NCBI GenBank assembly: GCA_003215175.1
Contig: QCKS01000007.1
Coordinates: 1-49,477, forward strand
DNA: 49,477 nucleotides
Direction: 5' to 3'
DNA from: Acidimicrobiales bacterium AG-410-I20
Lineage (GTDB): Bacteria > Actinomycetota > Acidimicrobiia > Acidimicrobiales > MedAcidi-G1
A program made the translations under genes and the position numbers. A model generated the notes under the pieces. It was not told the DNA's origin. It made no database searches and saw nothing but the letters and a program-made list of their open reading frames with translations. Numbering within the stretch: position 1 is the stretch's first letter; every line of letters begins with the position of its first letter. This document shows, in pieces, positions 3,488 through 42,154 of the stretch.

Positions 3488-3491
3488 TTAG

Positions 3492-3503
3492 CAGCCTAGG
3501 CTG
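3492..3503. repeat. 12-bp palindrome between convergent genes
   Basis: CAGCCTAGGCTG is a perfect palindrome lying across the end of the small acidic-protein gene, whose TAG stop is inside it, and just past the ClC stop. It could fold as a short hairpin and act as a weak bidirectional terminator, although no T-tract follows on either strand. Confidence 0.35.
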
Positions 3504-3672
3504 TCTCTTCTTCGTCTTCTTCAAATTCGTCAGCCCAAGCAGCATGAGCGGGTGAAATATGCTCTTCTTCTTCCTCCGACGAGAGGCTTTCAAAAATTGA
3601 ATCCAGATCTAGATCTTCACTTCGCTTCAACGCCCGCGCTTCTTCGAATCTCCGATGCCGTCCTTTTTTCAC
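3496..3672 (-). CDS. Small basic-to-acidic hypothetical protein (58 aa)
   Basis: A short open frame starting at GTG 3672. A clear AGGAG lies seven bases upstream, the best translational evidence for it. The protein has two halves. The N-terminus KKGRHRRFEEARALKRS is strongly basic. The rest is strongly acidic, with EEEEE and a C-terminus of EFEEDEEETA. No membrane segment or known domain is visible. The charge split suggests a small disordered protein that might bind nucleic acid or the ribosome through its N-terminus, but this is inference and no function can be assigned. It sits downstream of ribonuclease D with a 71-bp gap, and a possible TATAAG -10 element in the gap suggests its own promoter. 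Confidence 0.65.
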   Translation of the reverse strand: MKKGRHRRFEEARALKRSEDLDLDSIFESLSSEEEEEHISPAHAAWADEFEEDEEETA

Positions 3673-3743
3673 CACGTCACTCCTGATAAATGCTTATTTT
3701 CTTATACTTTAGCGATCAAATTTCAAAGTCTTAAACCACTAGT

Positions 3744-7437: not shown

Positions 7438-8196
7438 GTGACTAAAAAACATTCATTCTTCGGATCCGATCCATTCTTAGCTTTTGCACACCGCGGTGGA
7501 ACGGGAGCGTGGCCAGAAAATACTATGCGAGCCTTTGGTTATGCAGTTGAAATCGGCTACAAATACATTGAGACCGACGTGCATCTCACTTCAGACGGCA
7601 TCGTCATCGCTTTTCATGACTCCAAATTAGATCGTGTAACGGATTCAACTGGCTCCATCTCGGACCTCAAATGGGACCAGATACAAGAAGCTCGTGTTGG
7701 TGGAACAGACCCAATACCCCTGTTTGAAGAACTCCTTGAAGAGTTTCCATTGGTGAAAATAAATATTGATCCAAAGCATGACGAAGTTGTAGAACCACTT
7801 GCCGACCTGTTAATTAAGCACAACGCTCTAGACAGAGTCTGTGTTGGTTCTTTCTCAGATCGACGAATTGACCGTATTCAAAAACTTCTAGGTGGCAAGG
7901 CCTGTACTTCCGCTGGGCCTAAAGGCGTAGCAAAATTCCGTGTATCAAACTTCGGTATCGGAAAGCCGAGATTTTCTTTTGATTGTTTGCAAGTTCCAGT
8001 CCGTCAAAGTGGGATACCTTTAGTGGATCAAAGATTTGTTGACAACGCCCATAAGAACGGTCTTCAGGTTCATGTATGGACCATTGATGACCCTTCAGAA
8101 ATGAAGGAACTGCTTGACCTTGAAGTTGATGGAATTATGACGGACAAACCTGATTTACTCAAAGAAATTCTTCTCGAACGTGGCTTATGGAGCTGA
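7438..8196 (+). CDS. Glycerophosphodiester phosphodiesterase
   Basis: A 252-aa GDPD-family enzyme that splits glycerophosphodiesters, the backbones left after phospholipid deacylation, into glycerol-3-phosphate and an alcohol. Motifs in order are FAHRGGTGAWPENTMRAF, IETDVHLTSDG and HDSKLDRVTDSTG, which hold the catalytic histidines and the metal-binding E and D. The C-terminal HVWTIDDPSEM and DGIMTDKPDLL complete the TIM barrel. No signal peptide is seen, so the enzyme is cytoplasmic. GTG is the start, and a TAAGGT hexamer lies about eight bases upstream. The next gene follows after 6 bp and is probably co-transcribed. The gene is similar to ugpQ, but the naming is not secure. Confidence 0.9.
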   Translation: MTKKHSFFGSDPFLAFAHRGGTGAWPENTMRAFGYAVEIGYKYIETDVHLTSDGIVIAFHDSKLDRVTDSTGSISDLKWDQIQEARVGGTDPIPLFEELLEEFPLVKINIDPKHDEVVEPLADLLIKHNALDRVCVGSFSDRRIDRIQKLLGGKACTSAGPKGVAKFRVSNFGIGKPRFSFDCLQVPVRQSGIPLVDQRFVDNAHKNGLQVHVWTIDDPSEMKELLDLEVDGIMTDKPDLLKEILLERGLWS

Positions 8197-8202
8197 AACA
8201 AA

Positions 8203-8592
8203 ATGAACACCACTCGTATCTTCTTGCACATTATTTCGGTTTGTGGCTGGGTTGGTGGGCAACTCCTCATGGTGGCGTTAGTTCCCACTCTTCGAAAAAT
8301 AAGTTCTGATGCTCCTCGACTAGCGGCCGCCCGATTCGGGAAATTCTCATGGACTTTTATGGCTCTTGCTTTGATTACGGGGATATGGGGAATCTTTTCT
8401 ACAGACCTGTCAGATAAAGACTCCACATATCACATCACTTTATTTATCAAACTTCTCCTTGTAGCAGCGTCAGGTGTCTTTGCACTAGTTCACAGCAAAA
8501 CAAAATCAATTAAAGTAAAAGCTTCTACTGGCGCTTTGGGTCTCTTATCTGCCCTTGGAGCTTTGCTCAGTGGAGTGATCCTGGTTAACTAA
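8203..8592 (+). CDS. Four-helix integral membrane protein (CopD/DUF2269-like)
   Basis: A 129-aa membrane protein with about four hydrophobic helices: residues 5-27 (FLHIISVCGWVGGQLLMVAL), 50-66 (FMALALITGIWGIF), 78-97 (ITLFIKLLLVAASGVFALVH) and 108-128. A histidine in the first helix, the central GxWG and the lysine-rich loop before the last helix resemble the small CopD-like or DUF2269 proteins often found near electron-transfer or copper genes. That resemblance is by eye and weak. It follows the phosphodiesterase by 6 bp, with a GGAG about ten bases before its ATG, so it is probably the second gene of that operon. Confidence 0.65.
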   Translation: MNTTRIFLHIISVCGWVGGQLLMVALVPTLRKISSDAPRLAAARFGKFSWTFMALALITGIWGIFSTDLSDKDSTYHITLFIKLLLVAASGVFALVHSKTKSIKVKASTGALGLLSALGALLSGVILVN

Positions 8593-8623
8593 ATCCATTA
8601 ATTTGTGCTATTTCTCCCCTTAC

Positions 8624-8644
8624 TGTGGACAAACGTGTGGAAAG
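8624..8644 (-). promoter_or_regulatory. Pair of DnaA-box-like nonamers
   Basis: On the minus strand, TTGTCCACA (8624-8632) equals the nonamer usually given as the actinobacterial DnaA box. CTTTCCACA (8636-8644) is a second, weaker copy in the same orientation, with start-to-start spacing of 12 bp. They lie upstream of the promoter of the candidate RNA. Two boxes are too few to call an origin. Confidence 0.4.
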
Positions 8645-8698
8645 AAACAGAATCTCTGGGGAAATTGTTACAAAATTTGGGGAATACCTAAAAATGGG

Positions 8699-8727
8699 TT
8701 GACGAGTTGTGCAATTCGCGACAAGAT
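8699..8727 (+). promoter_or_regulatory. Promoter of candidate structured RNA
   Basis: TTGACG (8699-8704) and CAAGAT (8722-8727) are separated by exactly 17 bp. The -35 is near consensus and the -10 is weaker. Transcription would start near 8733, directly before the first hairpin of the RNA. Confidence 0.5.
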
Positions 8728-8732
8728 GCATT

Positions 8733-9205
8733 CACGCCAAACATAGCGTGGTTATCGGAACCGATAAGACCGACAAACCACCCCCGAAAAAAGCGCAAGC
8801 TGGTTTCGGCGGAGGAATGTCACTTTCGGGAAAGTTTCCATTAAATGTTTGGGGAGGACCGTGACACACTGGTTTCTTCGGAAATTAGTTAGTCAGCCGT
8901 AGGCACTGAGGTGTCGAGTTGGTAGGTCAGTATGAATCTTCGGATTCTTACTCCAACCAATAAGCACCTCAGTCGATCCAGTTTCTGCATTTAATTGCAG
9001 CACAAATTTGTGGAGTTATTGACGGATAACAAAACAAATAAGTGGATTCTGGTCGATGTGTCAAAAGCATTAGGTTCCTTATCTACTTCGGTAGTTAAAG
9101 AATTAAATGCTTTAGCTCTTAGAGCGTACGGTTCACCAGACATAGTTTTTTATTTTGACGGAAATTCAAAATTATGTTCGGGTAAAAAACCTTTCGGGGT
9201 TTTTT
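8733..9205 (+). ncRNA. Candidate structured non-coding RNA of unknown family
   Basis: The gene-free stretch behind the 8699 promoter can fold into successive hairpins. The first is GTGG..CCAC around TTATCG/CGATAA (8749-8781). TGTCAC/GTGACA (8818-8866) encloses CTTT/AAAG. A stem at 8868-8889 has a CUUCGG loop. A compound hairpin at 8905-8973 has arms of 9, 5 and 10 bp and another CUUCGG loop. Smaller stems lie at 8985-9000 and 9083-9094 (CTAC-TTCG-GTAG). The stretch ends in the terminator at 9184-9205. Three C(UUCG)G tetraloops on this strand favour plus-strand RNA. I compared it by eye with RNase P RNA, tmRNA, SRP RNA, 6S-type RNA and common riboswitches and found none of their core motifs. 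The 3' half is less structured, so the RNA could be shorter, or a leader. Confidence 0.55.
9184..9205. terminator. Bidirectional intrinsic terminator
   Basis: AAAAAACC (9184-9191) pairs with GGTTTTTT (9198-9205), giving a T-run at the end of the hairpin on both strands. It can end the candidate RNA on the plus strand and the glycosyltransferase operon on the minus strand. Confidence 0.75.
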
Positions 9206-9254
9206 ATTCAGGAATGTTATTTCTTGAAATTTCATTCGGTGTCACGCAACGTTA

Positions 9255-9321
9255 GGAACGACTCCAAGGAGTTAACCGGTTCGCCGGAAGGCTACTTGGG
9301 GTCGTTTCCGCGTTATAGCGG
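9255..9321. other. Strong extended hairpin downstream of the glycosyltransferase
   Basis: GGAACGACTCCAAG (9255-9268) pairs with 9295-9309, allowing one G-T pair and one bulged T. Inside is a second stem, CCGG-TTCG-CCGG (9276-9287). A neighbouring stem, CCGC/GCGG (9308-9321), shares bases with the outer stem, so the two compete. No T-tract follows on either strand, so this is not an ordinary terminator. It lies in the expected 3' region of the glycosyltransferase transcript. Confidence 0.45.
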
Positions 9322-9323
9322 AT

Positions 9324-10421
9324 TTATGGCACGTATATGCCTAAAAATGAAATGACGGTAAGTCCTGTAAGCCCAAGAGCCGAAATTGGGTAAATTAATT
9401 TTTCACTTCGTTTACCTTCGCTCAAAATGACCAAAGCCATAACGAACGGGAAAGCTGTCATCAAATATCTCTCGAGACTATTCAAGTTTTCGGCAGAAAC
9501 AGAAACAACAAAGGTAACGAACGAATACCAAAAATATTGCCTGGGGAGCCTTTTCCAAATCACTACCAACAAAACCAGAAAGAATAGGGCAACCAAGACG
9601 TGGAAAGCATCAGCTTCTAAATTCAAGATCTCAGAGAATCCTGACCAAACGCGCCTAAATGGATCTATAAATCCACCGCGAAATTCTCGCTGCACAGTAA
9701 AGGGCAACCAGTTCTCACTAGTACGCGAATTCGACCATAAAAGAAAAATTGCGACTCCTAACGGACCACCCAAACAAGCTAGAAGTTGCTCTGCGCGTTC
9801 CTTCAAGTTGCCGCGCCATAACGAAAACCCTGACGCCGAAATAGCCGCAAAGAAAAGCAGCGCTCCAGTTGGTCGAGTGAAACCAGCCATACAAGCAAAG
9901 ATTGCAGCAACTTTCCAATTCTGTTTTCTCAGCGAAAGGAAGAACAAGAGGGTGAAAGTCAAAAACATACTCTCCGCATAACCCCAAATCAGGACGAACG
10001 ATGCGGGAAAAACTGAGAACACCCAAACTGTTCTCTTTGCTCTACGAGCGCTACCTCCTTCAGAAACAATCAGCCGATAGAGAAGCAGGAACGTGACGAG
10101 CGAAAAAACGTTTGCTACCAACAACGACGCCCAAACTTCATTTCCACCAAGGAACTGAGTTACTAGTCTTCCGATTAAGACGAAGCCAGGAAAAAAGCGA
10201 AAGGATTCCTGACCTACCTGCTCATAACCGACGGTTATTATCTGCTGGTACCAGCCCGCATCCCATAGACGAAACCCTTGGGAAGTGAACTCTCGGTAAT
10301 GGTCTGTAGCAAATGTATGAGTAAGCCACATCGTTATTAGAACTATCGCCCGAGAAGTCAACCAAGCTGCAACGATTGAAATTAAGGCCTTGTCCAGATT
10401 CTTTGTTAAAGCATGACTCAT
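9324..10421 (-). CDS. PIG-V-like mannosyltransferase (GT-C membrane protein)
   Basis: A 365-aa protein with about eight to ten hydrophobic helices. The N-terminal region contains RLWDAGWYQQI in the first extracytoplasmic loop and FRFFPGFVLIGRLV, which match the WDAxxY and FFP motifs of PIG-V-type mannosyltransferases. These GT-C enzymes use polyprenyl-phosphate sugars to glycosylate lipids or proteins at the outer face of the membrane. The start ATG overlaps the stop of the preceding glycosyltransferase gene (ATGA), so both are coupled and probably build the same envelope glycan. The acceptor and sugar are unknown. The bidirectional terminator at 9184-9205 lies downstream. Confidence 0.75.
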   Translation of the reverse strand: MSHALTKNLDKALISIVAAWLTSRAIVLITMWLTHTFATDHYREFTSQGFRLWDAGWYQQIITVGYEQVGQESFRFFPGFVLIGRLVTQFLGGNEVWASLLVANVFSLVTFLLLYRLIVSEGGSARRAKRTVWVFSVFPASFVLIWGYAESMFLTFTLLFFLSLRKQNWKVAAIFACMAGFTRPTGALLFFAAISASGFSLWRGNLKERAEQLLACLGGPLGVAIFLLWSNSRTSENWLPFTVQREFRGGFIDPFRRVWSGFSEILNLEADAFHVLVALFFLVLLVVIWKRLPRQYFWYSFVTFVVSVSAENLNSLERYLMTAFPFVMALVILSEGKRSEKLIYPISALGLTGLTVISFLGIYVP

Positions 10422-39941: not shown

Positions 39942-41726
39942 CTATTCATCAAGTCGTAAAGCGGAAACAAAAGCCTCTTGAGGTATATCTACTCGTCCAA
40001 TTGATTTCATACGGCGCTTACCTGCTTTTTGTTTCTCGAGCAGTTTTCTTTTTCTCGTTATGTCCCCGCCATAAAGTTTGGCAGTTACGTCTTTACGAAA
40101 AGCTCGAACAGTCTCCCGTGCAATGATCCTTCCACCTATTGCTGCCTGAATAGGCACTTCAAATTGCTGTCGAGGAATTAGTTCTTTCAATTTAGCTGTC
40201 ATTCTTCGCCCGTAGGCTTCCGATGTTGCCCTATGGACAACTGTGGAGAAAGCATCTACTGGTTCTCCGTGCAGGAGAATGTCTACGCGCACCAAGTCAG
40301 ATGCTTTGTAACCATTCGGCTCGTAATCCAAACTTGCGTATCCTTGTGTTCGGCTCTTCATTTGGTCAAAAAAATCCATCACTACTTCTGCCAATGGTAA
40401 GAAATAACTTAATTCAACACGTTCTGGCGAAAGGTAGGTCATTGAATGAAGCTCCCCTCTCCGCTCTTGACAGAGTTCCATCAGGGCTCCGGTGTAGTCA
40501 GAAGGTGTAATAATTTTCGCCGCTAACCAAGGTTCCTTTATGGTGTTGATTTCTGTTGCTGCGGGAAGATCACAAGGGTTATCTACTTCTATGACCTCTC
40601 CGTTTGTTTTTTCTATTTGATACTCAACTGATGGCGCTGTCGTAATAAGACTTAGATTGAACTCTCTTTCTAAGCGTTCTCGAACTATTTCCATATGGAG
40701 GAGGCCTAAAAATCCGCATCTAAAGCCAAACCCAAGCGCTCCTGAAGTTTCAGGCTGATAGGTGAAACTCGAGTCATTAAGTCGGAGCTTCTCAAGAGCG
40801 TCTCTTAGATCATTGAATTCGTCCCCATCTATCGGATACAAACCGCTGTAAACCATCGGTTGAGGTTCTCTGTACCCAGATAGTGGTTCTTCAGCAGATT
40901 TTTTATTGCTGGTTATGGTTTCACCTGAACGAGCCTCACCAACGTTTTTTACTCCAGCTAAGAGATACCCGACTTCTCCTGGTCCGAGTTGGTCAACAGG
41001 CGTTAGGTCCGGCCGGCGGACTCCAATTTCGTCTACATCATGGACTGTGTTCGCTTGCATGAAACGTATGCGATCGTTTTTTGTGATTGTTCCATTAACT
41101 ACTCGTATTGACGAGACAACTCCTCGGTATTGATCAAAATGACTGTCATAGACCAGTGCTTGGAGGGGGGCTTCTGAGTCTCCACTCGGGTGCGGGGTTT
41201 TTTCAACTACTGCGTCCAACAGTTCAGGTACTCCTTCTCCTGTTTTTGCACTAATGAGATGTATCTCTTCTGCGGGGATCCCTAAGACCGATTCAATTTC
41301 TTCTGCGTATCTTTCTGGCTCAGCTGCAGGAAGATCTATCTTATTTAGCGCTGCGACAATTTCTAGGTCATTTTCTAAAGCTAAGTAACAATTTGCAAGT
41401 GTTTGAGCTTCTATTCCTTGTGCTGCGTCAACTACAAGAATCACTCCTTCGCAAGCTGCTAAAGATCGGCTTACTTCATATCCGAAATCAACATGTCCGG
41501 GCGTATCGATCAAGTTAACGATTTCGTTTTTCCAATCAAGTCTTACGCTTTGTAATTTGATGGTGATTCCTCGTTCGCGCTCTAAATCCATCGAATCCAA
41601 ATATTGGGCGCGCATTTCTCTTGGGTCTACCGCCCCACAGAGTTCAAGCATGCGGTCAGCAAGAGTTGATTTTCCATGATCTATGTGAGCAATGATGGAC
41701 GTGTTTCGAATTCGTGATAAATCCAT
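39942..41726 (-). CDS. lepA: Elongation factor 4 (LepA)
   Basis: A 594-aa translational GTPase that back-translocates stalled ribosomes or aids 30S assembly. G1 is [16 protein letters not shown]3 [11 protein letters not shown] and G4 [11 protein letters not shown]. The C-terminal LepA-specific domain ends with [34 protein letters not shown] (core [20 protein letters not shown]). TAGGTA lies seven bases before the ATG, an imperfect form of the leaderless pattern. hemW, often between lepA and hrcA in actinobacteria, is absent here. Confidence 0.96.
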
Positions 41727-41870
41727 GAGTATTTACCTAGTTGAGACCAAATTTAAATTGGTGCCTTTGAGATTAAAGTTCACGATATACCGGATTTCTT
41801 CAGTTAGACGCTAGTATTGCTCTGTCTATTTCGACTTAGGAATAGGCTTCATTTTTTAATTCTATTCTTT

Positions 41871-41875
41871 AAGGG
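41871..41875 (+). promoter_or_regulatory. Shine-Dalgarno that fixes the rpsT start
   Basis: AAGGG at 41871-41875 is eight bases before GTG 41884. The competing GTG at 41875 lies inside the SD, so it cannot be served by it. Confidence 0.6.
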
Positions 41876-41883
41876 TGTACCTA

Positions 41884-42135
41884 GTGGCCAATATAAAGAG
41901 TCAAATAAAACGTAACCGACAAACGGAGAAGCAGCGCGAACGTAACCGTATGGTGCGTTCCGAATTGCGTACTCGCACAAAGGCTGTTTTGGAGTCCGAC
42001 GACTCCAGTCAAGAGGCGTTATCAGCGGCTATGAAACGTATTGACACTGCTGCGGCTAAGCGAGTAATTCACCCCAATAATGCTGCTCGCAAAAAGTCCC
42101 GACTTCAGAAGCGTTTTAACGAGTTAAATAACTAA
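41884..42135 (+). CDS. rpsT: 30S ribosomal protein S20
   Basis: An 83-aa S20 that binds 16S rRNA early in 30S assembly. The second GTG gives the usual N-terminus MANIKSQIKRNRQTEKQRER; starting at 41875 would add three residues not seen in the family. The chain is rich in Lys and Arg and ends KKSRLQKRFNELNN. It diverges from lepA, as common in bacteria, and converges on holA with a 5-bp gap. Its leader of about 60 nt after a possible TAGTAT element (41812-41817) could carry feedback control, but no structure is evident. Confidence 0.95.
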   Translation: MANIKSQIKRNRQTEKQRERNRMVRSELRTRTKAVLESDDSSQEALSAAMKRIDTAAAKRVIHPNNAARKKSRLQKRFNELNN

Positions 42136-42139
42136 CCTT

Positions 42140-42154
42140 TCTACCTTTTAGGTA
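42140..42154. terminator. Short hairpin between convergent rpsT and holA
   Basis: CTACC-TTTTA-GGTAG folds as a 5-bp stem, starting one base before the holA stop codon ends. It may stop transcription in both directions, though no long T-tract follows. Confidence 0.4.

Follow-up and report, generated by a model that had tools for sequence, protein, structure and literature searches.

A previously undescribed family of structured RNA in a gene-free locus of Acidimicrobiia

What is maintained in 731 bp of DNA that carry no gene, in a member of the abundant, streamlined marine Acidimicrobiia, for which a 580-nt non-coding gene is costly? The window, by which we mean the whole stretch of 49,477 nt analysed here, has its largest gap at positions 8593-9323, between a + strand ORF (8203-8592) and a - strand ORF (9324-10421). 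This stretch had been singled out as gene-free in the original prediction of a structured RNA, and it is so: small ORFs within it are broken by stops and by 1- and 2-nt indels among congeners that are 84% identical, leaving no conserved open frame. These stops and frame-shifting indels rule out a protein-coding gene, and we conclude that the gap encodes no protein. The accompanying premise that convergent genes elsewhere in the window lie only 0-20 bp apart was too strict, as one convergent pair is separated by 256 bp (3488-3743 on our crude ORF map). On the same map, the second largest gene-free gap (414 bp, 41727-42140) lies upstream of a - strand ORF at 39942-41726; it has no Rfam match and could contain a leader or a promoter.

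A whole-gap search of 61 genomes recovered the gap in 36 of the 37 genomes of the same family, the window's own included, across six genera, and in none of the 24 genomes from other families of the order. Some of the homologues have names, among them MedAcidi-G1, MedAcidi-G2B and the Sva0996 marine group. The match covers nearly the whole gap in the nearest congeners, and in the other genera blastn mainly returns two blocks about 410 bp apart, one of ~73 bp at 8847-8918 and one of ~60 bp at 9254-9314. The fixed spacing of these blocks implies that the conserved unit reaches 9314, past the intrinsic terminator that had been proposed at 9184-9205. At the other end of the unit, the anticipated promoter TTGACG-N17-CAAGAT is present at 8699-8727 on the + strand, and its -35, spacing and -10 are kept in most relatives, in the form TTGA[CAT]-N17/18-CA[AT]GAT across genera. 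Its -10 hexamer, CAAGAT, is weak against the E. coli consensus, and a simple promoter scan does not list this promoter. When the alignment is anchored on the 3' block, a conserved start, CACGCC, appears about seven bases after the -10 and is followed by the RNA, from which we infer a transcription start at ~8733-8736.

With its ends placed by the promoter and by a 3' hairpin, the predicted RNA is ~583 nt long (8732-9314, + strand) instead of the ~470 nt first estimated, since the 67-nt hairpin at 9248-9314 had been missed. It begins with a long irregular 5' hairpin, or rod (domain I, 8732-8857, closed by 8732-8745/8844-8857), which is followed by a multi-branched domain II (8859-9247, closed by 8859-8867/9238-9247) and by the terminal 3' hairpin. 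Within domain II are a hairpin with a C(UUCG)G loop (8868-8889), in which five of seven pairs show double changes, a long branched arm (8890-9137) with a closing helix at 8890-8901/9127-9137, and further hairpins at 9139-9180 and 9213-9234, both part of the consensus structure. The remaining hairpin, at 9184-9205, is the one that had been taken for a terminator; it is an internal helix of domain II, and eight of its nine pairs covary. Of the other elements originally proposed, the three C(UUCG)G loops on the + strand are all there. Together with 9184-9205, the hairpins at 8868-8889, approximately 8905-8973 and 9083-9094 (the tip of a longer arm) belong to the consensus structure. Those at 8749-8781 and 8818-8866 are not independent, being strands of the one 5' domain at 8732-8857, and the hairpin at 8985-9000 is lineage-specific, as it is absent from the alignment of other genera.

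The window RNA (8732-9314) folds at -222 kcal/mol, with z = -11.9 against dinucleotide shuffles. The opposite strand of the same interval folds at z = -9.9, which is expected for hairpin-rich sequence, and because it also folds well the strand call rests on G-U pairs and the promoter. The RNAalifold covariation term is about -185 to -188 kcal/mol for 19-23 full-length sequences. Because RNAalifold fits a structure to the very alignment that it is given, we evaluated covariation by train/test splits between genera. The structure trained on genus g1 rendered 69% of 1,102 doubly changed pair cells canonical in the other genera, against 39% on average and 43% at most for slid controls, in which the 3' partner is moved by 1-6 columns; five other splits gave 63-79% canonical cells against control averages of 36-43%. 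Pair cells with G-U (505) are far more frequent than those with A-C (111), which identifies the + strand as the RNA. In the 5' domain taken by itself 95% of the cells are paired and 16 pairs carry double changes, a level reached by 0 of 500 shuffles. A tree-based, R-scape-like test of individual pairs, which has little power at this depth (23 sequences, 2.4 substitutions per column), found no pair at E <= 0.05, and because no single pair is significant it is the held-out test, taken in aggregate, that carries the case for covariation. In that aggregate sense the stems do covary in homologues, as had been anticipated, and we regard it as virtually certain that this is a real structured RNA.

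Known families do not account for it. None of the 4227 Rfam 15 families gives a relevant match in the window at the gathering threshold, and with permissive E-values, applied also to 19 related loci, only chance matches surfaced; in the literature on Acidimicrobiia non-coding RNAs we found nothing on this RNA. With no Rfam match in the window or its relatives and with stems that covary in homologues, the suspicion that a new structured RNA lies here is supported, and as far as sequence comparison can establish it, the RNA at 8732-9314 is a new, previously undescribed RNA family.

The hairpin at 9248-9314 is the most conserved element of the RNA. Its outer helix has 98.8% paired cells and six pairs with double changes in 33 sequences. 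Its middle is nearly frozen: GAG-R-AGUY stands opposite RGCU-A-CUC, so that a single purine-A mismatch interrupts the GAG-R-AG/CU-A-CUC helix, and an inner CCGG stem and a UUCG loop complete the structure in the window. The letters AG and CUACU are invariant across families. Frozen sequence inside a helix suggests a candidate binding site. The U tract is weak, and the hairpin is probably the 3' end of the transcript, that is, a predicted terminator. A narrow model of this hairpin (R1) finds it in 63 of ~394-395 sampled Acidimicrobiia genomes and a broader one (R2) in 100 of 394, leaving three quarters of the sampled genomes in which R2 does not detect it; the RNA is single-copy wherever the narrow model was run.

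Across 84,980 species genomes a 20-base pattern from the hairpin matched 62 times, 58 times with a two-sided hairpin and four times by chance, and all 58 two-sided matches are Acidimicrobiia, if we include L119, which is labelled Gammaproteobacteria (SP3089). The RNA, GDPD and pyk of L119 are MedAcidi-G1-like, and its gene order and sequence are those of genus g2; its taxonomic bin label is probably wrong. Outside the class, hairpin matches are few and mostly plain terminators. The f85 loci L222 and L225 carry the GAGGAG/CUACUC signature behind a TTGACC promoter, and these two matches, possibly with L221, L224 and L099, look genuine, although we do not claim them as members. L221, which belongs to another class, has a purine-rich, RNA-like stretch (~1100-1570) between hisC-like and DAHP-synthase-like genes that closes with a hairpin of this signature and could be either a distant relative or an attenuator. 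L223 contains, far from the RNA, a near-perfect 80-nt inverted repeat on the - strand (407-487, GGAGTACATAGCGTGC...GCACGCTATGTACTC) that weakly matches an unrelated microRNA model.

The length of the RNA ranges from ~220 to 640 nt. It is 590-640 nt in g1, g3, most of g4 and g5, and there are shortened forms of 389 nt in g6, ~356 nt in L113 and L116, and 254 nt in G023, in which domain II is mostly deleted and domain I is retained. A model of the 5' domain (R3) recovers these shortened forms and has no match in genus g2, which has no domain I, or in family f31. The RNAs of g2 (~240 nt) and f31 (220-270 nt) differ in the body, which is for the most part a rod with short hairpins; the rod of g2 bears a 7/7 internal loop. 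Beyond the window's family R3 gave nothing convincing, the L122 match having an E-value of 0.003 at the expected distance, and between this family and most others the body has no detectable homology. Since R3 misses g2 and f31 and the bodies differ, the promoter type and the 3' hairpin seem to be the constant part of the RNA and the body a modular one. For the same reason, that bodies are not detectably homologous, the claim that the RNA is class-wide rests on hairpin, promoter and gene order.

As for gene order, the window's family has pyk (-), GDPD (+), a small membrane-protein gene (+), the RNA (+) and a glycosyltransferase-like gene (-). In the window the upstream neighbour that is kept in relatives lies at 7438-8196 (+); we take it to be a glycerophosphodiester phosphodiesterase (GDPD) gene, a putative name that comes from the first annotation and from sequence recognition. 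Between it and the RNA lies the small membrane-protein gene (8203-8592, +), which is not found at g2 loci, and the membrane glycosyltransferase-like gene (9324-10421, -) is the convergent downstream neighbour within the family. The order pyk-GDPD-[DUF]-RNA is common to several families, and families f31 and f29 also have GDPD directly upstream of the RNA. At f53-type loci, from another order, GDPD was not found and a metallopeptidase-like gene adjoins, with hairpin and TTGACC promoter both present; because of these loci the RNA is not tied to GDPD. In genus g2 (L044-L049) the RNase P RNA gene sits ~1 kb downstream of the structured RNA on the same strand, and in the window's genus it sits on a different contig.

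Upstream of the promoter, and missed in the original prediction, is a phased array of four boxes on the + strand (8624-8686). Box 1 (TGTGGACAA, 8624-8632) is a perfect actinobacterial DnaA-box 9-mer, with core and spacing kept in relatives. Box 2 (TGTGGAAAG, 8636-8644) follows after 12 bp, box 3 (TGGGGAAAT, 8657-8665) after another 21 bp, and box 4 (TGGGGAATA, 8678-8686) lies midway between box 3 and the -35 hexamer, 21 bp from each. Most genera share this spacing of about 11-12, 21 and 21 bp and, with it, the distances between boxes, -35 and -10. Exactly one copy of the pattern TGKGGA-N15-TGKGGA-N15-TTGA is present in each of 27 of the 39 family genomes, by coordinates only at the RNA locus, and its reversed control has no occurrence in the 39, a search in which no wider regulon of the phased promoter emerged. 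The boxes of genus g2 are TGTGGATTT and, at the position of box 3, TGTGGAAAY. The complement of box 2, CTTTCCACA, is also found upstream of dnaA in relatives, where it and a second opposite-strand 9-mer, AAATCCACA, form phased sets. Since the box 9-mers are shared with the regions upstream of dnaA, DnaA is a reasonable, if unproven, candidate for regulating the promoter at 8699-8727.

How would such a locus work? We conclude that it acts as RNA, being neither an mRNA nor a leader, and we are largely persuaded that the RNA is autonomous and trans-acting. The housekeeping-type promoter (8699-8727), with its four helically phased sites, would produce the ~583-nt + strand transcript, which would fold into the 5' rod, the multi-branched domain and the terminal hairpin that probably ends it. 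The RNA would be abundant and would work in trans bound to protein, as the promoter type and the 3' hairpin are kept class-wide and the body is swapped or shortened. That the RNA is regulated and of a housekeeping type is suggested by its conserved promoter with phased sites, its apparent own 3' end, its presence at one locus and its vertical inheritance. Our best guess for its target is RNA polymerase, with the RNA as an analogue of 6S or Ms1 RNA, because 6S is not detectable and the short forms resemble Ms1 in gross shape; this guess, drawn by analogy, is a doubtful one. The fuller picture is somewhat easier to entertain but still tentative: a housekeeping RNA of Acidimicrobiia, class-wide or perhaps wider, with a fixed promoter, a 3' recognition hairpin and an exchangeable body, which would have either a 6S/Ms1 role or a role with DnaA in the replication cycle, and which would have grown to an ornate ~600 nt in one marine lineage.

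If the RNA were instead a cis-acting leader, a riboswitch or attenuator for the downstream gene, its terminator-like 3' hairpin would fit. However, the gene that follows the RNA runs towards it, both in the window and in those family members for which that gene was located, which leaves no gene to control in cis, and the conserved hairpin ends ~10-80 bp short of that gene's end. The long leader once offered as an option is therefore disfavoured, and we give it next to no weight. The same position of the hairpin, with its weak U tract, could be reconciled with a 3' UTR or complex terminator of the operon of GDPD and the membrane protein, possibly shared with the convergent gene and without an RNA function of its own, particularly as, in each family in which GDPD was located, the RNA always lies downstream of it in the same orientation. 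This too is highly improbable. A conserved promoter of the RNA's own separates it from the upstream gene, the f53-type loci have the hairpin and a TTGACC promoter although no GDPD was found there, and a terminator needs neither 580 nt of covarying structure nor an invariant internal motif.

Two other alternatives grant the locus a function. DnaA bound to the phased boxes could couple RNA production, or its own titration at the locus, to the replication cycle, with the RNA or its transcription feeding back. The perfect DnaA box, the 9-mers of box 2 and of g2 that recur upstream of dnaA in the same family, and the restriction of the array to one locus per genome are all consistent with this. Against it, in most genera boxes 3 and 4 do not fit the DnaA consensus, dnaA is distant from the locus in fully assembled relatives, an unrelated activator could share the phasing, and a promoter regulator leaves the conserved RNA fold unexplained; we consider it unlikely. 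Alternatively, the RNA could be a large ornate RNA of the OLE, GOLLD or ROOL kind, a self-assembling scaffold or RNA-protein particle instead of a regulator of RNA polymerase. Its 583 nt, multi-branched middle domain and high density of structure would suit such a role, but it has no Rfam match to any of the three and many relatives retain just 220-270 nt, without the ornate domain, which makes this reading rather improbable.

To our knowledge, few bacterial RNAs longer than 500 nt have a conserved structure, and every one known so far signals an unusual machine. The present RNA has been kept vertically, and its natural shortened variants are a ready deletion series. It raises the questions of which RNA replaces 6S or Ms1 in Acidimicrobiia and whether DnaA controls a non-coding RNA, and with the covariance models R1-R3 metatranscriptomes can be searched for it.

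Among known systems, RNase P RNA (RF00010) and tmRNA (RF00023) are likewise structured RNAs of housekeeping size with strong promoters, and neither model matches the locus at 8593-9323. tmRNA is ruled out, as the window's own genome carries it at G000:C52. That genome is incomplete and gave no RF00010 match, but 32 of 38 family genomes have RNase P RNA at another place. With OLE, GOLLD and ROOL, whose hallmark is a homo-oligomeric RNA particle, the new RNA has in common a length above 500 nt and multiple branches, at least in the window's own lineage. It differs from them in having no Rfam match, a variable size and a single, housekeeping-like chromosomal locus. An origin from mobile elements is rejected, as no phage or plasmid record matches the RNA.

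6S RNA binds the sigma70/sigmaA-RNA polymerase holoenzyme and Ms1 RNA binds core RNA polymerase. The new RNA resembles 6S RNA (RF00013) in a possible rod-like domain with internal loops, and differs in being longer, with an extra branched domain and a conserved 3' hairpin; the 6S covariance model has no match in the window or in any of 21 family genomes. Ms1 consists of one long hairpin, which has a bubble at its centre, and of two short hairpins close to the ends (PMC4191392). It lies near the origin and is transcribed towards it in 84% of cases (PMC4191392) and is syntenic with a HAD hydrolase (PMC9130861); the papers on Ms1 leave Acidimicrobiia uncovered (PMC9130861, PMC4191392). The HAD synteny is absent in the window's family, where the neighbours are pyk, GDPD and the glycosyltransferase-like gene, and no HAD neighbour was recognised at the few loci of other families whose ORFs were read. 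Nor is the RNA close to dnaA in the two fully assembled relatives examined, G367 (1.86 Mb against 3.30 Mb, of 3.59 Mb) and G832 (2.22 Mb against 1.17 Mb, of 3.8 Mb). Because neither the synteny nor the proximity to the origin is found, we do not class the RNA as Ms1, from which it also differs in size, Ms1 having ~300 nt and the new RNA 220-640 nt. Nevertheless, like Ms1 (MTS2823, scr3559) it stands alone behind its own conserved sigma-A-type promoter, is weakly conserved in sequence, and occurs in the phylum Actinomycetota without 6S RNA. The likeness may extend to shape in the short forms, with their rod and short hairpins, to which the long forms add the branched domain.
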